Made by a program: the position numbers and the translations under genes. This document shows, piece by piece, positions 403 through 36,367 of a DNA stretch of 36,367 nucleotides (the stretch's first letter is position 1; each line of letters opens with the position of its first letter). The notes below the pieces were generated by a model. The model made no database searches. It had not been told where the DNA came from and saw only the letters and a program-made list of their open reading frames with translations. The stretch comes from Chloroflexota bacterium (GTDB lineage: Bacteria > Chloroflexota > Dehalococcoidia > JACPPY01), in contig JACPPY010000010.1 in the NCBI GenBank assembly GCA_016190755.1, positions 1 to 36,367 of the forward strand, in the 5' to 3' direction.

Positions 403-1785
403 ATGTTCCAGGATCTCCTAGATAAGGCTCTCATGCTCGTGGACTTACTCGTCGCTCTCGGGATAGTAGCCGGGTCTGTTGCGTTGGGGTGGCTGGCGCG
501 CCAGTTGCTCCGTTGGATATCAAGACGGGCCAGAAAAACCACAACACAGCTGGACGACATGATACTGAGCTCGCTGCATGCTCCAGTTGTCATCATGGTG
601 GTGATACTTGGCATCTACTGTGCGCTGTGGTTCTTGCCTCTGAAGTCTGAAGTCGACAGCATTGTGCGGCGAGGACTCCTGATCGCCCTCGTTGCCGTCG
701 GGATCTACGCAGGGCTTGCCGTCGCTAACGCCCTGCTCCGTTGGTATGCCAAGGAAATCGCTGTACTCACCAAGACAGCCTTGGACGACAGGCTGATACC
801 ACTGGTGAGGGCTATGGTCCTGCTGACCGGCTCGTTCCTCGGCGTGCTACTTATCCTCCGCATGCTTGATATTGAAAACGACGCCATAAACACATGGTTG
901 GCAGGACATGGCGTAAGGATACTAGTCATCTTTGTTGTGGCCATGATCTTCTTCTTTGCCTTGAGCCGGATGCTGCCGCGGGTGATCAAGGATACCATCA
1001 GGCGAAGCATGGTGGGGAGGCCGGAATCGGAAGTGGAGAAACGTTCCGAAACGCTGGCCAACATCCTCGTCACCACTGGCCAGCTAGTGATCATAGCTAC
1101 GACTCTCATAATGATACTGGTGGAGCTGGCGCCGGACAAGATAGCTCCTTTCCTGGCTGGTTTCGGTGTCGTGGGCGTCGCCGTTGGCTTTGGTGCGCAG
1201 GGCTTAGTGAAAGATATCATCGCTGGCCTGTTCATTATCATGGAAGGACAATACCACGTCGGGGACGTGGTCAAGATAGCCGATGTAACTGGACTGGTAG
1301 AGAATATGAATCTCCGCCGGACAGTGTTGCGTGATTTCGACGGTACGGTGCACCATGTGCCGAACGGTGAGATAAAAGTTGCCAGCAACCTTACTAAGGA
1401 ATACTCCAGGGTCAACGTGAATATCGGCGTGTCCTATAACGCCAATCTCGACAGGGCCATAGCTGTGATAAACCAGGTGGGAGCCGAGATGGCCAAAGAC
1501 CCGATATGGGGCCCCGCGATAATTAAGGCCCCACAGGTCGCGCGAATAGATAGTCTGGGCGCGTCGAGCGTGGATATCAAGGTGGTCGGGGATACCAAGC
1601 CTATGCGCCAATGGGACATCACAGGCCAGTTGCTCAAGCGGGTCAAGGAGGCTTTCGACGTCGAGGGAATAGAAATACCTTGGCCGCATACGAAGGTGTA
1701 TTTCGGTGATTCTCCGATGCAGGTGAAGATCGACGGCGCGGAATTTGGACGTGTGCCGCCTGTGAACCGGAGCAAGCCTCTTTGA
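403..1785 (+). CDS. MscS family mechanosensitive ion channel (module 1)
   Basis: 460 aa; N-terminal hydrophobic helices; pore/beta-domain signature GVAVGFGAQGLVKDIIAGLFIIMEGQYHVGDVVKIADVTGLVENMNLRRTVLRD and HHVPNGEI; AAGGGGGAG ribosome-binding site upstream of ATG. Confidence 0.93.
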   Translation: MFQDLLDKALMLVDLLVALGIVAGSVALGWLARQLLRWISRRARKTTTQLDDMILSSLHAPVVIMVVILGIYCALWFLPLKSEVDSIVRRGLLIALVAVGIYAGLAVANALLRWYAKEIAVLTKTALDDRLIPLVRAMVLLTGSFLGVLLILRMLDIENDAINTWLAGHGVRILVIFVVAMIFFFALSRMLPRVIKDTIRRSMVGRPESEVEKRSETLANILVTTGQLVIIATTLIMILVELAPDKIAPFLAGFGVVGVAVGFGAQGLVKDIIAGLFIIMEGQYHVGDVVKIADVTGLVENMNLRRTVLRDFDGTVHHVPNGEIKVASNLTKEYSRVNVNIGVSYNANLDRAIAVINQVGAEMAKDPIWGPAIIKAPQVARIDSLGASSVDIKVVGDTKPMRQWDITGQLLKRVKEAFDVEGIEIPWPHTKVYFGDSPMQVKIDGAEFGRVPPVNRSKPL

Positions 1786-2122
1786 GCATGCATGTCCCCA
1801 GCCAATGTCGTCGGACAACTTGAAAGAGAAGATTGTGCCTAGTAGCATATATATAGACATATAGAAAACCATCGGCTGGATGTCGAAGGCCCGGGATCTT
1901 GTCTGGTGAACTCACGCACGGAAAAACTTCGGCCCTATGCTTGTATTGGGTGCTTTTCCTGCGCTCCTGGCCGGACGCTTGCCGCCGTGAAGACAACTTT
2001 ATCTTAATGCTAGAAGAGGCCGAAGGAAACGCGACCAACCGGGCCAGGTGCTGCTTGAAGTTTCCGGCGGATATTCAGGGGGTCCCAATCAGGGCCCTGG
2101 AGCCCATAAGGAAAGGCGTCCC

Positions 2123-3547
2123 ATGAATACGGTTGCCAATCTGCCACAGGGTGCTACTTCTGGCATCATCATACCGCTAGTTGTGTTTGTAGCCACGCTC
2201 ATCGCTACGTTCTGGCTTCGAACCATCGGTTATAGCTATGCAGCACGCTGGGCAAAGAGCAGTGGGTGGAGTGGGGAACAAACATTGCGCGCGGCCACTC
2301 GGGTCCCATCGATATTCTGGTGCATTATCGTTAGCGCATACTTGGCCTTAACTGTTTCCACCGTGCCGGCCGCGTGGAAAGGCCCCATCAACCTGACCTT
2401 GGGGAGTGTACTTGTCGTATCTATATTCATGGCTGCCATGAATATGGTGGTCAGGCTCATATATCAGCACGGCTCACGGCTCGGAATACCACGGCGAGCT
2501 CTGGGCACGGCGGCCAATATCGTGAGGGCGGTGGTAATCGTCTTTATGGTGCTTACGGTGGTGGAGATATGGGGCCTACCGTTCGCACCAGTACTGCTCT
2601 TGGTGGTCGTAGTCCTTCTGGTGGGGATATTGCTGCTGCGGGATGTTCTCCCCGATGTGCTGTCCGGGCTGCAGCTCACCAGCACTGGCAACGTGAAGGT
2701 TGGGGACCACATCAGGTTGGAGTCAGGTGAGGAGGGAGAGGTCATCGAAATGCAGTTGAGGTACACCCGAATTAGGGGAGCGGACCAGAGTGTTGCCATC
2801 ATACCTAGCTCTCGGATGGTCCGGTCTACCATCATCAATTACGGGCCGCCTGTGACGAGGGCACGCGAGCCATTTCGATTCGAGACACGTCTGCAGGTAA
2901 CGGAGCTCACCGGGCTTGGCGCCAGAAACCTGAAGGAGTTGGCCGAGATACTGAAGAAGTCTCCCGACTCCGTAGTGTACTATCATACACATAACTTCCT
3001 TCTGGAACATCATTTCCTGTTCCATGAGCCAGCCAATGATTTCGCCGCCTGGGTCGTGGATGTGCTGGGAGATGCAGTGCTTGGCGAGAGACTTGCCGCC
3101 GTAGATATATTTGAATTTCCCAATCTTGGCCAGTTGAGGGAACGGCTCGTGGAGATGATGGAAGAGTGCTTGTCGACGCAGGAAAACGGCAGACAAGCGC
3201 CGCCTGATAGGGAGTTCTACTTTCTGAAGTCCGTAAGCATGGTGTTGCCTACGTCCTATACGGCGCGCAACCTGAGGGAGTTCCTTGAGGCGCTGCGAAA
3301 GATCAGCATTGGGTCGTTGTACTTCCATGTCTTTGAGGCGCGACTGAGACTGGGCAAAGGGTTGAATGATTTTTCGACCTGGCTGAAGGATAGTATGGGC
3401 GAGGAAGAGTTAGCCCGGAAGATTGCCAGAATAGACCCGTATACTTATTCTCTGGAGGGCTTGAGATCGCTACTGATACAGTTCGTCGAACAACGGATAG
3501 AGCGAAGCTCACAGACTACGAGCCAGTTGTCGGCCGGAGCCGGATAG
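2123..3547 (+). CDS. MscS-like channel with long duplicated C-terminal domain (module 1)
   Basis: ORF 2048-3547; likely start is ATG 2123 (MNTVANLPQG). Four to five TM segments, then MscS beta-domain GNVKVGDHIRLESGEEGEV...IIPSSRMVRSTIINYGPP, then two copies of a ~95-aa domain. Close paralogue of 33973-35358. Confidence 0.85.
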   Translation: MNTVANLPQGATSGIIIPLVVFVATLIATFWLRTIGYSYAARWAKSSGWSGEQTLRAATRVPSIFWCIIVSAYLALTVSTVPAAWKGPINLTLGSVLVVSIFMAAMNMVVRLIYQHGSRLGIPRRALGTAANIVRAVVIVFMVLTVVEIWGLPFAPVLLLVVVVLLVGILLLRDVLPDVLSGLQLTSTGNVKVGDHIRLESGEEGEVIEMQLRYTRIRGADQSVAIIPSSRMVRSTIINYGPPVTRAREPFRFETRLQVTELTGLGARNLKELAEILKKSPDSVVYYHTHNFLLEHHFLFHEPANDFAAWVVDVLGDAVLGERLAAVDIFEFPNLGQLRERLVEMMEECLSTQENGRQAPPDREFYFLKSVSMVLPTSYTARNLREFLEALRKISIGSLYFHVFEARLRLGKGLNDFSTWLKDSMGEEELARKIARIDPYTYSLEGLRSLLIQFVEQRIERSSQTTSQLSAGAG

Positions 3548-3585
3548 AAGAGCTGAAGCTGATAGCCAACCGGCTGGTTGGCAAG

Positions 3586-4719
3586 GTGGTACTAAATGTG
3601 AACTCCACCTTTGTGGGCGGGGGCGTAGCTGAAATTCTATCTCGCATGGTGCCCCTGGTGCAGGAGATGGGCGTCGATGCGCGCTGGATCGTGATCAAGG
3701 GCACCCAGGAGTTCTTCCAGGTGACCAAGAAATTCCACAACGCGCTGCACGGCCGGCAGGAGGACATTACGAAGGATGAGCTGGAGTTGTTCCTTGAGAT
3801 AAACCGCAAGAATATCGAGGAACTCAATCTGGATGCGGATGTCTTTTTTATCCACGACCCACAGCCGATCGTGCTGGTGACACAGAAGAAGAAGCTGGGC
3901 AGAAAATGGCTGTGGCGCTGCCACATAGATGTGTCTCGGCCGGACCAGAGAGTGTGGGACTTCTTGCTGCCCTTTATCGTGGAGTATGACGCGGCGGTAT
4001 TCTCTGCGCCAGCCTTCTCCAGGCCTCTGGCCATCCGGCAGTTCCTGATTTCACCCTCCATAGACCCGCTGAGCGATAAGAATAGAGACCTGACACCTGA
4101 GACTATCGATTCCGTTCTGACCATGTTCGGGATACCGAAAGACAAGCCGATAATAACCCAGGTGTCCCGTTTCGATTACCTCAAGGACCCTGTGGGTGTA
4201 ATCCAGGCTTTCGAACTGGTGAAGCGGAGCGTGGACTGCCGCTTGGTGCTGGCTGGAGGAACGGCCACCGACGACCCCGAGTCGGGAAAGGTGTTGGCCG
4301 AGGTGCAGGAGCGCGCGTATGGCAATCCTGATATTCATGTGTTGTCTATTCCTCCCGACAGCAACATAGAGATAAACGCCCTGCAAAGGGCTTCCACAGT
4401 GGTCTTGCAGAAGTCGCTCAAGGAGGGTTTCGGACTCACCGTGAGCGAGGCGCTGTGGAAAGCCAAGCCGGTGGTGGCTTCAGCCGTAGGCGGCATACCC
4501 CTGCAAGTCAGGGACAAACTGACTGGCCTGTTGTCGCACGGCATCGAAGGCACCGCCTACGCTATCCGGCAGTTGTTGACCAACCCGGAGTATGCACGCT
4601 GGCTGGGAGAAAACGGGCGCGAACACGTTAGATACAATTTTCTCATCACCCGGCATATCAAGGACTACATGCTAACCTTCCTTGCCGTAGGCCGGCCTGA
4701 GGAGATTGTATACCTGTGA
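3586..4719 (+). CDS. treT: TreT-like trehalose synthase/phosphorylase, GT4 family (module 1); real N-terminus probably further upstream
   Basis: [99 protein letters not shown] are TreT/trehalose phosphorylase-type motifs. The frame stays open upstream to the stop at 3391-3393. Confidence 0.85.
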
Positions 4720-4783: not shown

Positions 4784-6082
4784 ATGCAAGATGTTCTGGC
4801 CATAGTCCTTGCTGGAGGCATGGGAAGCAGGTTGAGCATACTCGCCAGCGAGCGCGCCAAGCCTGCTGTGCCCTTCGGCGGCAGATATCGCGTAATAGAT
4901 TTCACCCTGAGCAACTGTGTCAATAGTGGCGTTCGCAAGGTCGGGGTCATAACGCAGTATGCTCCACGCACTCTTGCCCAGCACCTTGGCGATGGGAGGC
5001 CCTGGGGGCTGGACTATCCGGCTGGCCAGTTCACGGTCCTTCAACCCTACCTTACACGTACTTCTGGCGAATGGTACAAGGGAACGGCGGATGCCATATA
5101 CCAGAATATTGGCTTCATCGAAGGGCACCGTGTCAAGCAGGTGCTGGTGCTGGCAGGCGACCATGTCTATGCTATGCGTTACGACCCGATGATGGCATAT
5201 CACCGCGAGAACCGCGCCGACATCACTGTGGGAGTCATAGAGATGCCGCTGCAGGACGTAGTCGGGAGGTTTGGCGCGTTGTCTCTTGACGACGGGGGCA
5301 TGGTAGTTGATTTTGAGGAGAAGCCCGTAGAGCCGAAGGGCAACCTGGCCTCCATGGGCATCTATATCTTCAACAAGGATGTGCTAACGTGCTGTCTCGA
5401 GGAGGATGCGCGCGATGAGAAGTCCCAGCGAGACATCGGCCGCAACATTATTCCTGCCTCTCTCGGGAAGTATAGAGTCGCGGGTTACAAATTCGCCGGC
5501 TACTGGCGGGATGTCGGTACCGTGGAGGCCTACTGGCAGGCCAACATGGACCTGATCGTCGACCTGCCGCCGCTGAACCTGTACGACGAGGAAAATCCTA
5601 TACGCTCCGGGTGGTATAGCGAACCGCCCGCCAAGCACGGGCCCCAGGCCGCTGCTGGCCGCAGCCTGGTCTCCAGCGGTTGCATCATCAACGGGAAAGT
5701 GTGGAACTCTATCCTATCGCCGCGTGTCTACATCGAAGATGGGGCGGAGGTATCCGAGTCAGTACTGTTTGAAGGAGTTCGGGTCGGCAAAGGAGCCGTG
5801 CTCCACAGGTGCATCGTAGACGAGGGGGCATGGATAGGCCCCGGCAGCCAGATAGGGTGGGGTGAAGACTATGCGCCCAACAGGGAAGAGCCGGACATAC
5901 TTACCACCGGTATTACGCTCATAGGTCAGGGGGCCAAAGTGCCCGTTGGGGTGAAGGTCGGCCGGAATTGTAAGGTGGCAGGCTGGGCCAAAGAGAGAGA
6001 CTTTATTTCAGATTACATACCGAGCGGCTCCAGCGTTGGAGGCGGACAGGCGTTCCGACAGGAACTGGTCTGCCCGGCCTAA
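4784..6082 (+). CDS. glgC: Glucose-1-phosphate adenylyltransferase (ADP-glucose pyrophosphorylase)
   Basis: [84 protein letters not shown] 4784 preceded by GAGGTAGAGGGGG. Confidence 0.93.
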
Positions 6083-30209: not shown

Positions 30210-31601
30210 GTGGACGATTTCAATATTAGTGCCCTAACGACAGTTGACGCCTTGATAGTGGCAATCATCCTGGCAGCAGGCGCGACAGTAGCCTGGGTCT
30301 TGCGCCGGTTGCTGCGAAGGCTGGAAAAACATGCTCGTGACAACACCGCAATGGTGCTCGATGATTACCTCATCGGCGCGCTGGGCGATCCCTTGTTCGT
30401 GGGCGTGGTCCTCCTGTCACTATACATTGGCTCCGTGTATTTGACCTTGAATCCCTCCATTGACGGGGCAATGCGCCAGGCTCTGCTGGTCGGCTTGGCG
30501 GCGACCGGGATCTACGCAGTCCTGGCTGTCGTAGATGCATTCCTGCGCTGGTACTGTCGGGAGATTGCTAAGACCACGCACACTTCTCTGGACGACAAAC
30601 TAATACCAATACTACGAGTGTCCATTCCCATCATCGGCGGGCTCCCCGGCCTGCTGGGTATCCTGAGGATTCTGGGCGTGGAACACGCTGGCATTAATGA
30701 CTGGCTGGCCCAGCATGGGATACGGCTAGCAGCCATCACGGCGCTGACGCTGGTAGCTTTCTTTAGTACCAGCTACGGACTGCCCAGGCTTATCAAGACC
30801 ATGGCAAGACGAGGCATGGGTGGCCAACCGGACGAGGAGGTGAAGAAGCGCTCGGAGACACTGGCCGTGGTGCTAGTGACCACCTCCCAGGTAATCACCA
30901 TCGGCGTCGGTGTCATTATGCTCCTCTCGGAGTTTGCCGATATTGCTCCTATACTGGCGGGCGTGGGAGTCGCTGGTATAGCCATTGGCTTTGGAGCGCA
31001 GAGCTTGGTCAAAGACGTCCTCAACGGCCTGCTCATAATCATGGAGGGCCACTACCACGTGGGAGATGTGGTCAGAATCGCTGACATAGGCGGACTGGTG
31101 GAAGGCATGAACCTGCGCCGGACGGTACTCCGCGACCTGGATGGCATAGTACACTTCGTACCCAACGGAGAAATACGCGTGGCGAGCAATTTCACCAAGG
31201 AGTACTCCAGGGTAAATCTCAATATCAGCGTGGCTTATGACACTAACCTGGACCACGCTATTGCCGTACTGAACAGAGTGGGAAAGGCACTCGCCGAGGA
31301 CCCGGCATGGCAGCCGTTCATACTGAAACCGCCTCAAGTACTGCGCGTCGACAAGCTGGGAGATTCCGGCATCGATATAAAGGTTGTGGGCGATACGAGG
31401 CCTATTAAGCAGTGGGATGTGATGGGAGAGCTTCGCAAGAGGGCTAAAGAGGCGTTCGACAGGGAAGGAATAGAGATCCCATGGCCGCATACAAAAGTTT
31501 ACTTTGGTGATTCACCTCTGTTGGCCAGATACAGACGAGACAGAGGCGGGGATGGCGGTACCGGCGAAGAATTCCGAGTCAAACAGAACCCGGCCAGATG
31601 A
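30210..31601 (+). CDS. MscS family mechanosensitive ion channel (module 2)
   Basis: GTG start; GIAIGFGAQSLVKDVLNGLLIIMEGHYHVGDVVRIADIGGLVEGMNLRRTVLRDLDGIVHFVPNGEIRVASNFTKEYSRVNLNI; paralogue of 403-1785 over its full length. Confidence 0.93.
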   Translation: MDDFNISALTTVDALIVAIILAAGATVAWVLRRLLRRLEKHARDNTAMVLDDYLIGALGDPLFVGVVLLSLYIGSVYLTLNPSIDGAMRQALLVGLAATGIYAVLAVVDAFLRWYCREIAKTTHTSLDDKLIPILRVSIPIIGGLPGLLGILRILGVEHAGINDWLAQHGIRLAAITALTLVAFFSTSYGLPRLIKTMARRGMGGQPDEEVKKRSETLAVVLVTTSQVITIGVGVIMLLSEFADIAPILAGVGVAGIAIGFGAQSLVKDVLNGLLIIMEGHYHVGDVVRIADIGGLVEGMNLRRTVLRDLDGIVHFVPNGEIRVASNFTKEYSRVNLNISVAYDTNLDHAIAVLNRVGKALAEDPAWQPFILKPPQVLRVDKLGDSGIDIKVVGDTRPIKQWDVMGELRKRAKEAFDREGIEIPWPHTKVYFGDSPLLARYRRDRGGDGGTGEEFRVKQNPAR

Positions 31602-31683: not shown

Positions 31684-33159
31684 ATGTGGAACAAGAACAC
31701 GCTTTGCGACCTGGTGTCCGAGAAAATGTCTGGATACCACTTTGTTGTTGTCTCGAACCGCGAGCCTTACATACATGTCCATGAGAAAGGTGAGGTGCGC
31801 TGCCAGGTGCCGGCCAGCGGCTTGACCACGGCCTTGGATCCCGTCATGCGAGCCTGCGGAGGAACCTGGATAGCTCACGGGAGTGGGGGTGCCGATAGGG
31901 AGATGGTTGACGAGAAGAACAGGATAGCCGTGCCACCTAAAGAGCCGAAGTACACTTTGCGGAGGGTCTGGCTCTCAAAGGAGGAAGAGGCAGGCTACTA
32001 TTATGGTTTCTCCAATGAGGCCCTCTGGCCGCTCTGCCACATCTCGTATACCCGACCTGAGTTCAAGGAGGACGACTGGAACACCTACTATAGGGTCAAC
32101 CGTCTATTCGCCAACACCGTACTAGAAGAAGTGGGAGACAAGAAGGCATTCGTATTCGTACAGGACTACCACTTAGCGCTTGTACCCGGATTCCTGCGCG
32201 AAGCCGGCAATATTATTACCGCACAGTTCTGGCATATACCGTGGCCCAACCCCGAGGCTTTTCGGATATGTCCCTGGCAGACGGAAATACTCGACGGCCT
32301 CCTGGGGAACCACCTGCTGGGCTTCCATATCCGCTATCACTGCAACAACTTCCTCGACACTATTGATCGGGCTATTGAGGCCAGAGTAGACCGAGAGAGG
32401 TACGAGGTGCAACGGCGAGGCCTGAAAACGGCTGTCCGCCCGTATCCTATTAGCGTAGACTTCGACGAGTTAAACCAGGAGGCACAGCAACCTTCAGTCG
32501 AAGAGGAGGTGCAGAGCCTGAAGAAACGGCTGGAATTGGGGGATGTGGTGGTGGGACTAGGCCTGGACAGGATAGATTACACCAAAGGCATTCCGGATAG
32601 GCTCAAGGCCTTTGACCGATTCCTGGAGAGATGGTCGGAGTACAGGGGAAAGGTGGTCTTCATACAGGCGGGTGTGCCCAGCCGGGTCCACATCGGAGTT
32701 TACAAGGCACTCAACGAAGAGGTCGACAATCTTATTGAAGAGATCAACTGGAAACACTCTTCGGACCACTGGAAGCCAATCATCTATCTGCGAGAGAAAC
32801 TACGGCCACTGACGCTTACGGCCTTGCGCCGCATGGCCAATTTCTGCGTGGTCAGTTCACTACATGACGGGATGAACCTTGTGGCCAAGGAGTACGTCGC
32901 CAACCGCTTTGACGAAGACGGTGTGCTCTTGCTGAGTCCGTTCACCGGGGCCTCCAGGGAGTTGCCTGACGCCATAGCGACTAACCCGTACGCTACCGAC
33001 CATTTCGCAGCGGCCATTAAGGAGGCCGTCGAGATGCCACTGCATGAGCGCAAGCGCAGAATGCGACGGATGAGGCAGATGGTGCGAGAAAACAACATCT
33101 ACAAGTGGGCTAGCGACATGATCTCCGACCTGGCCAGGTTCGAGTTTGGGGAAGGATAG
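31684..33159 (+). CDS. otsA: GT20 trehalose-6-phosphate synthase-like protein (OtsA family, divergent)
   Basis: VVVSNREPYIH, VQDYHLALVPGFLRE, FWHIPWPNPEAFRICPWQTEILDGLLGNHLLGFH, GLGLDRIDYTKGIPDRLKAFDRFLE, VSSLHDGMNLVAKEYVA. Confidence 0.88.
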   Translation: MWNKNTLCDLVSEKMSGYHFVVVSNREPYIHVHEKGEVRCQVPASGLTTALDPVMRACGGTWIAHGSGGADREMVDEKNRIAVPPKEPKYTLRRVWLSKEEEAGYYYGFSNEALWPLCHISYTRPEFKEDDWNTYYRVNRLFANTVLEEVGDKKAFVFVQDYHLALVPGFLREAGNIITAQFWHIPWPNPEAFRICPWQTEILDGLLGNHLLGFHIRYHCNNFLDTIDRAIEARVDRERYEVQRRGLKTAVRPYPISVDFDELNQEAQQPSVEEEVQSLKKRLELGDVVVGLGLDRIDYTKGIPDRLKAFDRFLERWSEYRGKVVFIQAGVPSRVHIGVYKALNEEVDNLIEEINWKHSSDHWKPIIYLREKLRPLTLTALRRMANFCVVSSLHDGMNLVAKEYVANRFDEDGVLLLSPFTGASRELPDAIATNPYATDHFAAAIKEAVEMPLHERKRRMRRMRQMVRENNIYKWASDMISDLARFEFGEG

Positions 33160-33160
33160 A

Positions 33161-33976
33161 GTGGAGCATCTCTTCTTATCCTGGCCTGAGGTATCGCGGC
33201 AGTTGAAGGCTGCCCGCAGAGTGGCACTGTTTAGTGACTACGACGGCACTCTGGCGCCGATCGTGGAAAGGCCTGAGCTAGCCGAGATGCCCGGGGAGAC
33301 AAGGAAGTTGTTGGAAATCTTCGCGCGGCAACGCCGTCATACAGTGGGTATTCTCAGCGGACGGGCTCTGAGCGACCTCCGGGATAGGTTGAACATCAAG
33401 GGCATAGTATATGCCGGCAACCACGGGCTGGAGATTGAGGGGCCTGGAATACATTTCGTTGATCCGGTTGCCGAAGAGCTACGTCCCATTCTCAAACTGA
33501 TGCACAGAGCTTTGACCCGAGCCCTACGGGCCATAAGGGGGATACTGGTGGAAAACAAGGGGTTGACACTGAGTGTCCACTACCGTCTGGCAGGAGATCA
33601 AGAGGAGGGTCAGGTGAGGAGCATCTTCGATGGGGTCGTGGCTAATGCGCGCTCGCTGGGGAAGATCAGGGTTACCAATGGCAAGAAAGTCTTGGAGGTC
33701 AGGCCGCCGGTGGATTGGGACAAGGGCCGGGCGATTGTCTTCCTGATAGATGCCTATGCCCGGCGGAATGGAAAAGATAGGGCCCTTCCAATATTCCTTG
33801 GGGACGATCTCACGGACGAAGACGGGTTCAAGGTGCTGAAAGAACGTAACGGCATCTCCATATATGTGGGAGAAGAGAGTACCTGCAGCAGTGCCAGATA
33901 CTTCCTCAAATCGCCGGATGAGGTCCGCGAGTTCCTGGCTCGCCTGCTGGAATGCCGGGGAGGTGTTGACTCATGA
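33161..33976 (+). CDS. otsB: Trehalose-6-phosphate phosphatase (HAD superfamily)
   Basis: VALFSDYDGTLAPIVERPELAEMPGETRKLLEIFA, VGILSGRALSDLRDRL, YAGNHGLEIEGPG, EVRPPVDWDKGRAI, FLGDDLTDEDGF. GTG 33161 preceded by GGGGAAGG; ORF track starts 33146. Confidence 0.93.
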   Translation: MEHLFLSWPEVSRQLKAARRVALFSDYDGTLAPIVERPELAEMPGETRKLLEIFARQRRHTVGILSGRALSDLRDRLNIKGIVYAGNHGLEIEGPGIHFVDPVAEELRPILKLMHRALTRALRAIRGILVENKGLTLSVHYRLAGDQEEGQVRSIFDGVVANARSLGKIRVTNGKKVLEVRPPVDWDKGRAIVFLIDAYARRNGKDRALPIFLGDDLTDEDGFKVLKERNGISIYVGEESTCSSARYFLKSPDEVREFLARLLECRGGVDS

Positions 33977-35358
33977 AGAGCGCTATAGATTGGGTCACTG
34001 CCAACTGGTGGACGAACGCCCTCATACCCGTGGCGGTCTTTCTGGCCGTGCTCATAGCCTGTCTTTGGTTGAGGAGGCAAGCCTACCACCGCCTTGACCT
34101 CTGGGCCAAGAGGACGCGCTGGGGAGGTGACGAGATACTGCTGCGAGCTACGCATATGCCCTCCATAATCTGGTCAGTCATGGCAGGGATCTACTTTGCT
34201 GTAGCTGTGTCTGCACTCCCGGCGGCATCAAAGGCGCCGGCGGGCCAGGTGTTGGGCAGCCTGTTTGTCCTCTCCATTAGCCTGTGTGTGCTCAACATAG
34301 TTAATCGGCTTTCCCAGTTCTACAGGGCCAAGTGGAACCTGCCGCAGAAGACCGCTTCCATCGCCAGCAATCTGGCCGGGGCTGTTGTCCTTGGCGCTGC
34401 TGTGCTCACCACGCTAGATATTTGGGGAGTGCCGATGTTAGGCATGGTGCTCCTGTTGGCAGCAATCGGCGTGCTGGCACTGACGATCTTCAAAGACGCT
34501 CTCACGAACCTGTTCGCCGGGCTGCAACTCAACGCCAGAAACCATATAGGAATTGGAGACTACATAAAACTGGAAAGCGGTGAGGAGGGAACCATAACCG
34601 AGTTTGGTTGGCGTCATATCCAGATCCAGGCGCTGGAAGGTGGTGTGTTGATTGTTCCCAATAGCCGGCTGATCCGGTCCGTAGTCATCAACTATGGTCA
34701 TCCTTTAAAGAAGGCCAAGGTCCCGTTTTGCTTCTACAACCGCGTTCACATCACTGAGCTAACCGGATACAGGGCCAGGAACCTGCATCAACTCGCCAGC
34801 ACTTTAAGACGGGTGCCGGATTCAGTCGTTTACTATCATACCCACCATTTCCTCGAAGCGCACCACTACCTTGTACCGGAGCCGGCGAACGACTTCGCGA
34901 TCTGGGTTGGTGACGCCCTGGGCGAAGAAGAGTTGAGCGAGAGGCTGGCCGCCATTGATACCTTCGAGTTCTCCAGCCTGACAACGCTGAAGAACAGGAT
35001 AGTAGACACTATTGAGGAGTGCCTCAGCAGGGGGATGGATGGACGTCAGGCCCCGGACGGACGTGAGTTTCACTTCTTGAAATCAGTTACGGTCGGGTTG
35101 CCTACGCCGTATTCCGCTCATGACCTCCGCGAGTTCGTGGAGGCCCTCAGGAAAGTGAGCCTGGGATCACTCTACTATCATGTCTTCGAGTCCCGGATGA
35201 GGCTGGGGCAGGGAATGAATGACTTCTCGGTATGGCTCAGGGATAGTCTTGGGGAAGCTGACCTGGCGGACAGGGTAGCTGGTTTCAACCCTTATATGCA
35301 TACGTTGGAGGGACTTCGATCGTCGCTGATACAACTCGTCGAAAAGCGCATCAAATAA
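33973..35358 (+). CDS. MscS-like channel with long duplicated C-terminal domain (module 2)
   Basis: ATGA overlap with otsB stop; TM region, beta-domain HIGIGDYIKLESGEEGTITEF...LIVPNSRLIRSVVINYGHP, then two copies of the ~95-aa domain. Paralogue of 2123-3547. Confidence 0.85.
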   Translation: MKSAIDWVTANWWTNALIPVAVFLAVLIACLWLRRQAYHRLDLWAKRTRWGGDEILLRATHMPSIIWSVMAGIYFAVAVSALPAASKAPAGQVLGSLFVLSISLCVLNIVNRLSQFYRAKWNLPQKTASIASNLAGAVVLGAAVLTTLDIWGVPMLGMVLLLAAIGVLALTIFKDALTNLFAGLQLNARNHIGIGDYIKLESGEEGTITEFGWRHIQIQALEGGVLIVPNSRLIRSVVINYGHPLKKAKVPFCFYNRVHITELTGYRARNLHQLASTLRRVPDSVVYYHTHHFLEAHHYLVPEPANDFAIWVGDALGEEELSERLAAIDTFEFSSLTTLKNRIVDTIEECLSRGMDGRQAPDGREFHFLKSVTVGLPTPYSAHDLREFVEALRKVSLGSLYYHVFESRMRLGQGMNDFSVWLRDSLGEADLADRVAGFNPYMHTLEGLRSSLIQLVEKRIK

Positions 35359-35381: not shown

Positions 35382-36367
35382 GTGGGCAAGAGCACAATCG
35401 AGGAATTGCGTGTATTAGCCAAACACCTTTCGGGGAAAGTGGTACAGAACATCAATTCCACCTTCACCGGAGGTGGTGTGGCCGAGATACTCAGCCGTAT
35501 GATGCCCCTGTTCAACGAACTCGGTGTGGAGGCGCGATGGAATGTAATCAAGGGCAGCCAGGAATTCTTCCAGGTGACAAAGAAGTTCCACAACGCGCTC
35601 CATGGAAGGCAAGAGACAATTACGGAAGGTGATCTTTCCCTGTTCCTGGAGGTAAGCCGGAAAAACAGCGAGGAGCTAAATCTGGAAGCCGATATCTTCT
35701 TCGTGCACGATCCCCAGCCGATCGTGCTAGTGACGCAGAAGAAGAAGCTGGGAAAGAAATGGCTGTGGCGCTGCCACATAGACGTATCCCGGCCGGACCA
35801 AGGGGTATGGGACTTCCTGTTGCCCTACATCAGCAGGTATGATGCCGCAGTCTTCTCTTCTCCGGGCTTCTCGCGGCCGCTGCCCATCCGGCAGTTCCTG
35901 ATCTCTCCGTCCATTGATCCTCTGAGCGACAAGAACGGCGACCTGCCACCGGAGATCATTGCCTCCGTCTTAACCAAGTACGGCATACCGAAAGACAAGC
36001 CCATAGTAACCCAGGTATCGCGGTTCGATTATCTCAAGGACCCTGTGGGTGTAATCCAGGCCTTCGAGTTGGTGAAGCGAAGCGTGGACTGCCGTCTGGT
36101 ATTGGCAGGAGGAACGGCTACCGACGACCCGGAGTCTGAGAAAGTTCTTGCAGAGGTCAGGGAGCGAGCATACGGTAATCCTGACGTCCATGTGCTGCTC
36201 ATTCCTCCCGGCAGTGATATTGAGATCAACGCGCTGCAGAGGGCGTCCGATGTAATAGTACAGAAGTCGATTAAAGAAGGCTTCGGGCTTACCGTGAGCG
36301 AGGCGCTGTGGAAAGCCAGACCTGTGGTAGCCTCAGCGGTGGGCGGTATAACCCTGCAGGTGACGAA
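35382..36367 (+). CDS. treT: TreT-like trehalose synthase/phosphorylase, GT4 (module 2), truncated by window end
   Basis: Not in the ORF track because it has no stop in the window. Translated by eye: [52 protein letters not shown]...[29 protein letters not shown]...[26 protein letters not shown] 35382 is the first canonical start in frame. Confidence 0.85.
   Translation, partial: MGKSTIEELRVLAKHLSGKVVQNINSTFTGGGVAEILSRMMPLFNELGVEARWNVIKGSQEFFQVTKKFHNALHGRQETITEGDLSLFLEVSRKNSEELNLEADIFFVHDPQPIVLVTQKKKLGKKWLWRCHIDVSRPDQGVWDFLLPYISRYDAAVFSSPGFSRPLPIRQFLISPSIDPLSDKNGDLPPEIIASVLTKYGIPKDKPIVTQVSRFDYLKDPVGVIQAFELVKRSVDCRLVLAGGTATDDPESEKVLAEVRERAYGNPDVHVLLIPPGSDIEINALQRASDVIVQKSIKEGFGLTVSEALWKARPVVASAVGGITLQVT

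Follow-up and report, generated by a model that had tools for sequence, protein, structure and literature searches.

An MscS-type channel fused to a DUF5752 domain and encoded beside a trehalose synthase gene in a Chloroflexota bacterium

Genes for trehalose synthesis and for a mechanosensitive-type channel lie together in the archaeon Thermoproteus tenax. The products GT and TPSP of its msc-gt-tpsp operon form a complex in which GT activates TPSP, and the channel has been proposed to jettison trehalose made under stress (PMC3634074). The MSC protein of this operon comprises 197 aa and only its transmembrane region resembles MscS; the gene order was called unique to Thermoproteus and Pyrobaculum (PMC3634074). 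A study of trehalose in S. acidocaldarius contains no information on a gene cluster or on OrfY (PMC7688234). Within the MscS superfamily, the Trypanosoma cruzi pore works without the alpha/beta cage, which is thus dispensable (PMC12334622), and bCNG channels are cited as MscS relatives in PMC4560390. In the literature searched, we found no mention of DUF5752 or of an MscS-DUF5752 fusion. Neither the components nor the idea of such an operon is new; the fused channel and the link between DUF5752 and TreT were not found described there.

The window analysed here is a stretch of 36,367 nucleotides of a Chloroflexota genome (contig JACPPY010000010.1). It contains two sets of trehalose genes (Table 1), and in either set a canonical channel is accompanied by one of the DUF5752 type. 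Cluster A has the order MscS, MscS-DUF5752, TreT and GlgC-like, and cluster B the order MscS, OtsA, OtsB, MscS-DUF5752 and TreT; the latter thus has the gene content of the msc-gt-tpsp type. The GlgC-like enzyme is likely to supply NDP-glucose for TreT.

Table 1. Features of the two trehalose clusters; positions are those of the window.
Feature	Position	Strand	Remarks
Canonical MscS-family channel, cluster A, beta-domain and alpha/beta C-terminal domain	403..1785	+	PF00924 1.5e-18, PF21082 6.9e-10
MscS-DUF5752 fusion gene, copy A	2123..3547	+	474 aa; Shine-Dalgarno AAGGAAAGG at 2108-2116
Predicted membrane helices, five TM	2141..2686	+	H7-47, H52-78, H83-119, H124-149, H154-171/176-188; AlphaFold2 model
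MscS beta-domain, PF00924 / MS_channel_2nd	2642..2842	+	Residues 174-240; Pfam E 2.2e-13
DUF5752 unit 1	2864..3166	+	Conserved loop YYHTHxFLxxHxYLxPEPxND at about 2978-3040; unit profile, Pfam, BLASTP
DUF5752 unit 2	3206..3496	+	Unit profile, Pfam, BLASTP
TreT-type trehalose synthase (GT4), cluster A	3502..4719	+	Annotated start GTG 3586; homology from near 3502
GlgC-like glucose-1-phosphate adenylyltransferase	4787..6082	+	Frame open from 4706
Canonical MscS-family channel, cluster B	30210..31601	+	
OtsA-like trehalose-6-phosphate synthase (GT20)	31684..33159	+	
OtsB-like trehalose-6-phosphate phosphatase	33146..33976	+	TIGR00685 8.5e-49, above its cut-off
MscS-DUF5752 fusion gene, copy B	33973..35358	+	461 aa; 49% identical to copy A
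TreT of cluster B, cut by contig end	35382..36367	+	84% identical to TreT A

The reading frame of copy A is open across 2048-3547. A good Shine-Dalgarno sequence precedes ATG 2123 with a spacing of 6 nt, so that the extent given in Table 1 is the likely gene. An AlphaFold2 model, for which 50 fused relatives were used (mean pLDDT 86.7, pTM 0.59) and which as a monomer is uninformative on the oligomer, predicts five long helices at the N-terminus, then the beta-domain and after it one unit in two copies, each made of one long strand and about five helices. The last transmembrane helix is of the pore type, as judged by alignment to the MscS, YnaI and MSL1 cores.

DUF5752 follows directly after the beta-domain at residues 249-456 (Pfam E 3.6e-68), with a PF19027 score of 229.5 bits against a cut-off of 23 and with model positions 2-208 of 208 covered. 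The initial annotation had tentatively proposed this name, and the match bears it out. It had also held that the protein does not end as a normal MscS, and indeed MS_channel_3rd is absent from the Pfam scan of copy A. In the 50 full-length fused relatives, PF00924 and PF19027 were found in every one and the alpha/beta cage (MS_channel_3rd, PF21082) in none, while the canonical MscS neighbours carry the cage domain. An ordinary MscS C-terminus is thereby ruled out.

The pore also departs from the canonical form. In the fusions, helix TM3a has a median glycine content of 2% and a combined glycine and alanine content of 24%, as opposed to 19% and 33% in 15 canonical channels encoded in operons of this kind. 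The Gly/Ala-rich packing of an MscS-type TM3a is accordingly not found in the fusions and, since the usual glycines are missing, their conductance is uncertain, as is the tension gating assumed in the initial annotation.

The two units are homologous, as the initial annotation had proposed. They share 30% identity over 86 aa in a BLASTP self-comparison (E 3e-13), and profiles of 43 sequences each align in hhalign with a probability of 99.3% (E 3e-20), which rules out a chance or low-complexity repeat. The halves of the copy A domain separately match their own halves of the DUF5752 model (7.6e-32 and 1e-31). Furthermore, a unit profile recovers both units in each paralogue, those of copy B at 34720-35019 and 35062-35349. 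The repeat limits first read from the sequence (~2868-3177 and ~3212-3511) agree with the profile to within a few residues.

The duplication is real, but it is not particular to this channel. The Pfam DUF5752 model has 208 positions covering both units, and both are also present in OrfY of T. tenax, a free-standing archaeal protein of solved structure (PDB 4cso). Tandem duplication thus belongs to DUF5752 itself and is its normal state, and a repeat unique to the copy A protein is excluded. In a sequence search 4cso matches both units over the full length (E 3e-25). A separate model of the domain (pLDDT 88) matches it in fold with a Foldseek E of 2e-14 and a TM-score of 0.73-0.77, and the structural comparisons taken together give 0.73-0.80 at 30-31% identity; Foldseek matched no other solved structure to this model.

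When 14 divergent units are compared, the core motif keeps only F3, H40, D58 and W62 without exception. The loop of unit 1 (domain residues 40-60) ranks with the best conserved segments (0.79 versus 0.65; 0.87 versus 0.66 in free DUF5752), yet among the least confident parts of the model (61-73 versus 88). This combination suggests that the loop could be a partner- or ligand-binding segment.

Whether such a domain travels with trehalose genes beyond the window can be read from its relatives. Among 85,462 species genomes scanned, 80 loci emerged as the closest relatives of the query, 55 of them fusions and 25 free DUF5752 genes. Where enough downstream sequence was present for counting, the gene that follows on that strand is TreT in 52/52 fused and 24/25 free loci, altogether 76/77, which substantiates the initially noted link to a trehalose-forming enzyme. 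These loci span about 15 bacterial and archaeal phyla, including Chloroflexota, Nitrospirota, Planctomycetota, Omnitrophota, Elusimicrobiota, Bacteroidota and Hydrothermarchaeota, and most DUF5752 loci also hold OtsA/OtsB. The fused form occurs in Dehalococcoidia, Nitrospirota and some sulphate-reducer-like lineages; the free form was found in Omnitrophota, Planctomycetota (Brocadiaceae), Elusimicrobiota, Bacteroidota, Ignavibacteriota, Goldiibacteriota, WOR-3 and one archaeon. In two further archaeal genomes DUF5752 directly adjoins TreT or a TreT-sized gene. Separate MscS genes, some of them canonical, lie in at least six free-DUF5752 operons and in one archaeal operon, so that the fused parts occur also as operon neighbours. 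A gene fusion of DUF5752 with TreT was not seen.

Chloroflexota alone give the same picture. Full-length DUF5752 is present in 6/400 genomes, that of the window included, and all six have TreT. TreT itself occurs in 102/400, and by hand calculation the chance of six out of six is about 2.5e-4.

In a quick tree of 84 DUF5752 domains, computed without bootstraps, a single branch (SH-aLRT 99) separates all 57 fusions from the remaining domains, which fits a single fusion event followed by spread. In a second tree of the same kind, the TreTs linked to DUF5752 group in one clade (SH-aLRT 96) that excludes 15 unlinked TreTs (the Pyrococcus TreT and 14 others from Chloroflexota), the linked and unlinked sets having been chosen differently; the clade evidence from both trees is therefore good, not final. 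The Thermoproteus TreT (6zj4) stands next to the linked clade, and OrfY comes from the same genus.

The TreT of cluster A is assigned by homology. It matches the TreT_GT1 N-terminal domain (PF21269, 2.3e-55) together with a GT4 domain, and is closest to proven TreT enzymes (6zj4, E 1.3e-102; 2x6q, 1.5e-81). Its homology region overlaps the channel gene. At 3502-3504 stands GCG, and no ATG, GTG or TTG is present where homologous TreTs start; the first start, GTG 3586, falls within conserved sequence. In addition, the frame of the copy A channel runs 15 codons beyond the stop of its paralogues, into the TreT region. The start or the intactness of this TreT is uncertain. The two TreT copies (3586-4719 and 35382-36367) are 84% identical and the two DUF5752 channels 49%, which suggests unequal divergence or gene conversion.

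We tentatively favour the explanation that DUF5752 is a partner or docking module of one TreT clade, and that trehalose synthesis is tied by the fusion to a channel for osmotic release. The initial annotation had left the choice between sensing a cytosolic ligand and docking the enzyme. No other neighbour of DUF5752 is conserved as tightly as TreT, whether or not a channel is present, and genomic linkage of this kind favours docking or regulation of TreT. An ancestral single fusion would have exchanged the alpha/beta cage of MscS for the two-unit DUF5752. Free DUF5752 would serve TreT, with OtsA/OtsB, in many phyla, and the lineages with the fused form would have the partner domain built into the channel. 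DUF5752 may bind TreT through the conserved loop of unit 1, holding the enzyme at the mouth of the release channel so that synthesis and release are coupled. At low turgor trehalose would be made; tension would open the channel for release and perhaps switch synthesis. By analogy, such a scheme would fit the model for T. tenax, in which trehalose is made and then jettisoned (PMC3634074). Operon linkage does not prove binding, however, and it could be a ligand that the loop binds.

The main rival, which we consider possible though unlikely, is an osmolyte valve in which the units bind a small metabolite from the trehalose or alpha-glucan pathways and thereby shift the gating of the channel. Candidate ligands would be trehalose, trehalose-6-phosphate, glucose or NDP-glucose. 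Conserved His, Asn/Asp and aromatic residues in every unit, with the four invariant positions among them, would suit a binding site, and units are attached to sugar enzymes, namely GH57 enzymes and HAD/sucrose-phosphatase-like ORFs. The superfamily may also offer a precedent in the bCNG channels, relatives of MscS whose C-terminus is a nucleotide-binding (cNMP/cAMP) domain, and cAMP domains shift gating. However, we know of no DUF5752 protein with a ligand. The motif may also be structural, given that its invariant Asp is placed where a helix is predicted to start, and with 4cso as the only solved match no ligand-binding homologue is available as a guide.

The sugar enzymes in question carry the unit singly. 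The wider unit superfamily with a single copy includes proteins of roughly 100 aa, and distant single-unit proteins lack TreT linkage. A single unit forms the C-terminus of archaeal GH57 enzymes. Archaeal ORFs with one C-terminal unit lie at L159:2406-3875 (-), L161:4886-6376 (-) and L160:3639-5180 (+); the first two are GH57 enzymes by Pfam and the third adjoins a starch-synthase-like GT5 gene. ORFs of about 577-582 aa in large Chloroflexota genomes (L009, L012) combine HAD/sucrose-phosphatase-like and HerA-like ATPase parts with one terminal unit, and the ORF at L014:493-3225 joins a response-regulator receiver, one unit and a PPDK_N domain. The genome of the window encodes a third DUF5752 protein, a 103-aa single unit beside a PAS-domain-like ORF (L168:4743-5054, G000 contig C46).

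A passive replacement appears improbable to us. DUF5752 would then be a new cytosolic vestibule or filter, and the operon would reflect shared osmotic regulation with no contact to TreT. The domain does sit exactly at the position of the lost cage, and the caged vestibule is dispensable in T. cruzi MscS (PMC12334622). The free domain nevertheless keeps its strict TreT neighbourhood where there is no channel (24/25 loci), and therefore has a TreT-related role of its own.

Somewhat more doubtful still is a variant in which the membrane part, with its cage lost and its pore helix poor in glycine, has largely given up ordinary MscS conduction and acts as a tension sensor by which a bound trehalose synthase is turned on or off, the free DUF5752-TreT pair being its soluble ancestor. 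If true, this would be a mechanically regulated metabolic enzyme complex.

Lastly, a DNA-binding transcription factor tethered to the membrane by the fusion, as the molecule name given by the depositors of 4cso might imply, is very improbable: the domains of the fusions have an acidic median pI of 5.4 and a net charge of about -8.6, no DNA-binding fold is among the Foldseek matches, single units lie within GH57, HAD and PPDK enzymes, and a domain fixed covalently under a channel pore is ill-placed for DNA. The label of OrfY deserves re-examination, the family being acidic when fused and lying beside TreT or inside sugar enzymes.

With docking to TreT as the preferred explanation, DUF5752/OrfY, of unknown function though of solved structure, gains a concrete and testable partner. 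The fusions also add a lineage of prokaryotic MscS proteins in which the canonical cage is missing. In addition, the long-suspected link between the synthesis of a compatible solute and its mechanosensitive release would become testable in one natural protein pair.

Compared with described channels, the fusion protein shares a pore-type last helix and the beta-domain with E. coli MscS, YnaI and MSL1, and five transmembrane helices with the latter two; it differs from the superfamily by the missing alpha/beta cage and the glycine-poor pore helix. TcMscS likewise consists of an MscS pore and a beta-domain without the cage (PMC12334622), and the beta-domain cores superpose with a TM-score of 0.83 over 135 residues. 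However, nothing replaces the cage in TcMscS, which has fewer transmembrane helices, whereas the fusion channels have DUF5752 in its place. bCNG channels resemble the fusion in that a regulatory cytosolic domain was replaced or added on an MscS core, although their cNMP-binding domain is unrelated to DUF5752. OrfY is soluble and free-standing and carries a transcription-factor annotation, while here the same domain is the C-terminus of a channel beside TreT. With the operon of T. tenax the locus shares a mechanosensitive-type channel, a GT4 enzyme and trehalose-6-phosphate synthase/phosphatase genes lying together. There, the complex is that of GT and TPSP, with MSC outside the demonstrated complex; MSC lacks DUF5752 and GT is distinct from TreT. 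Here, the channel and DUF5752 are one protein, with TreT adjacent.
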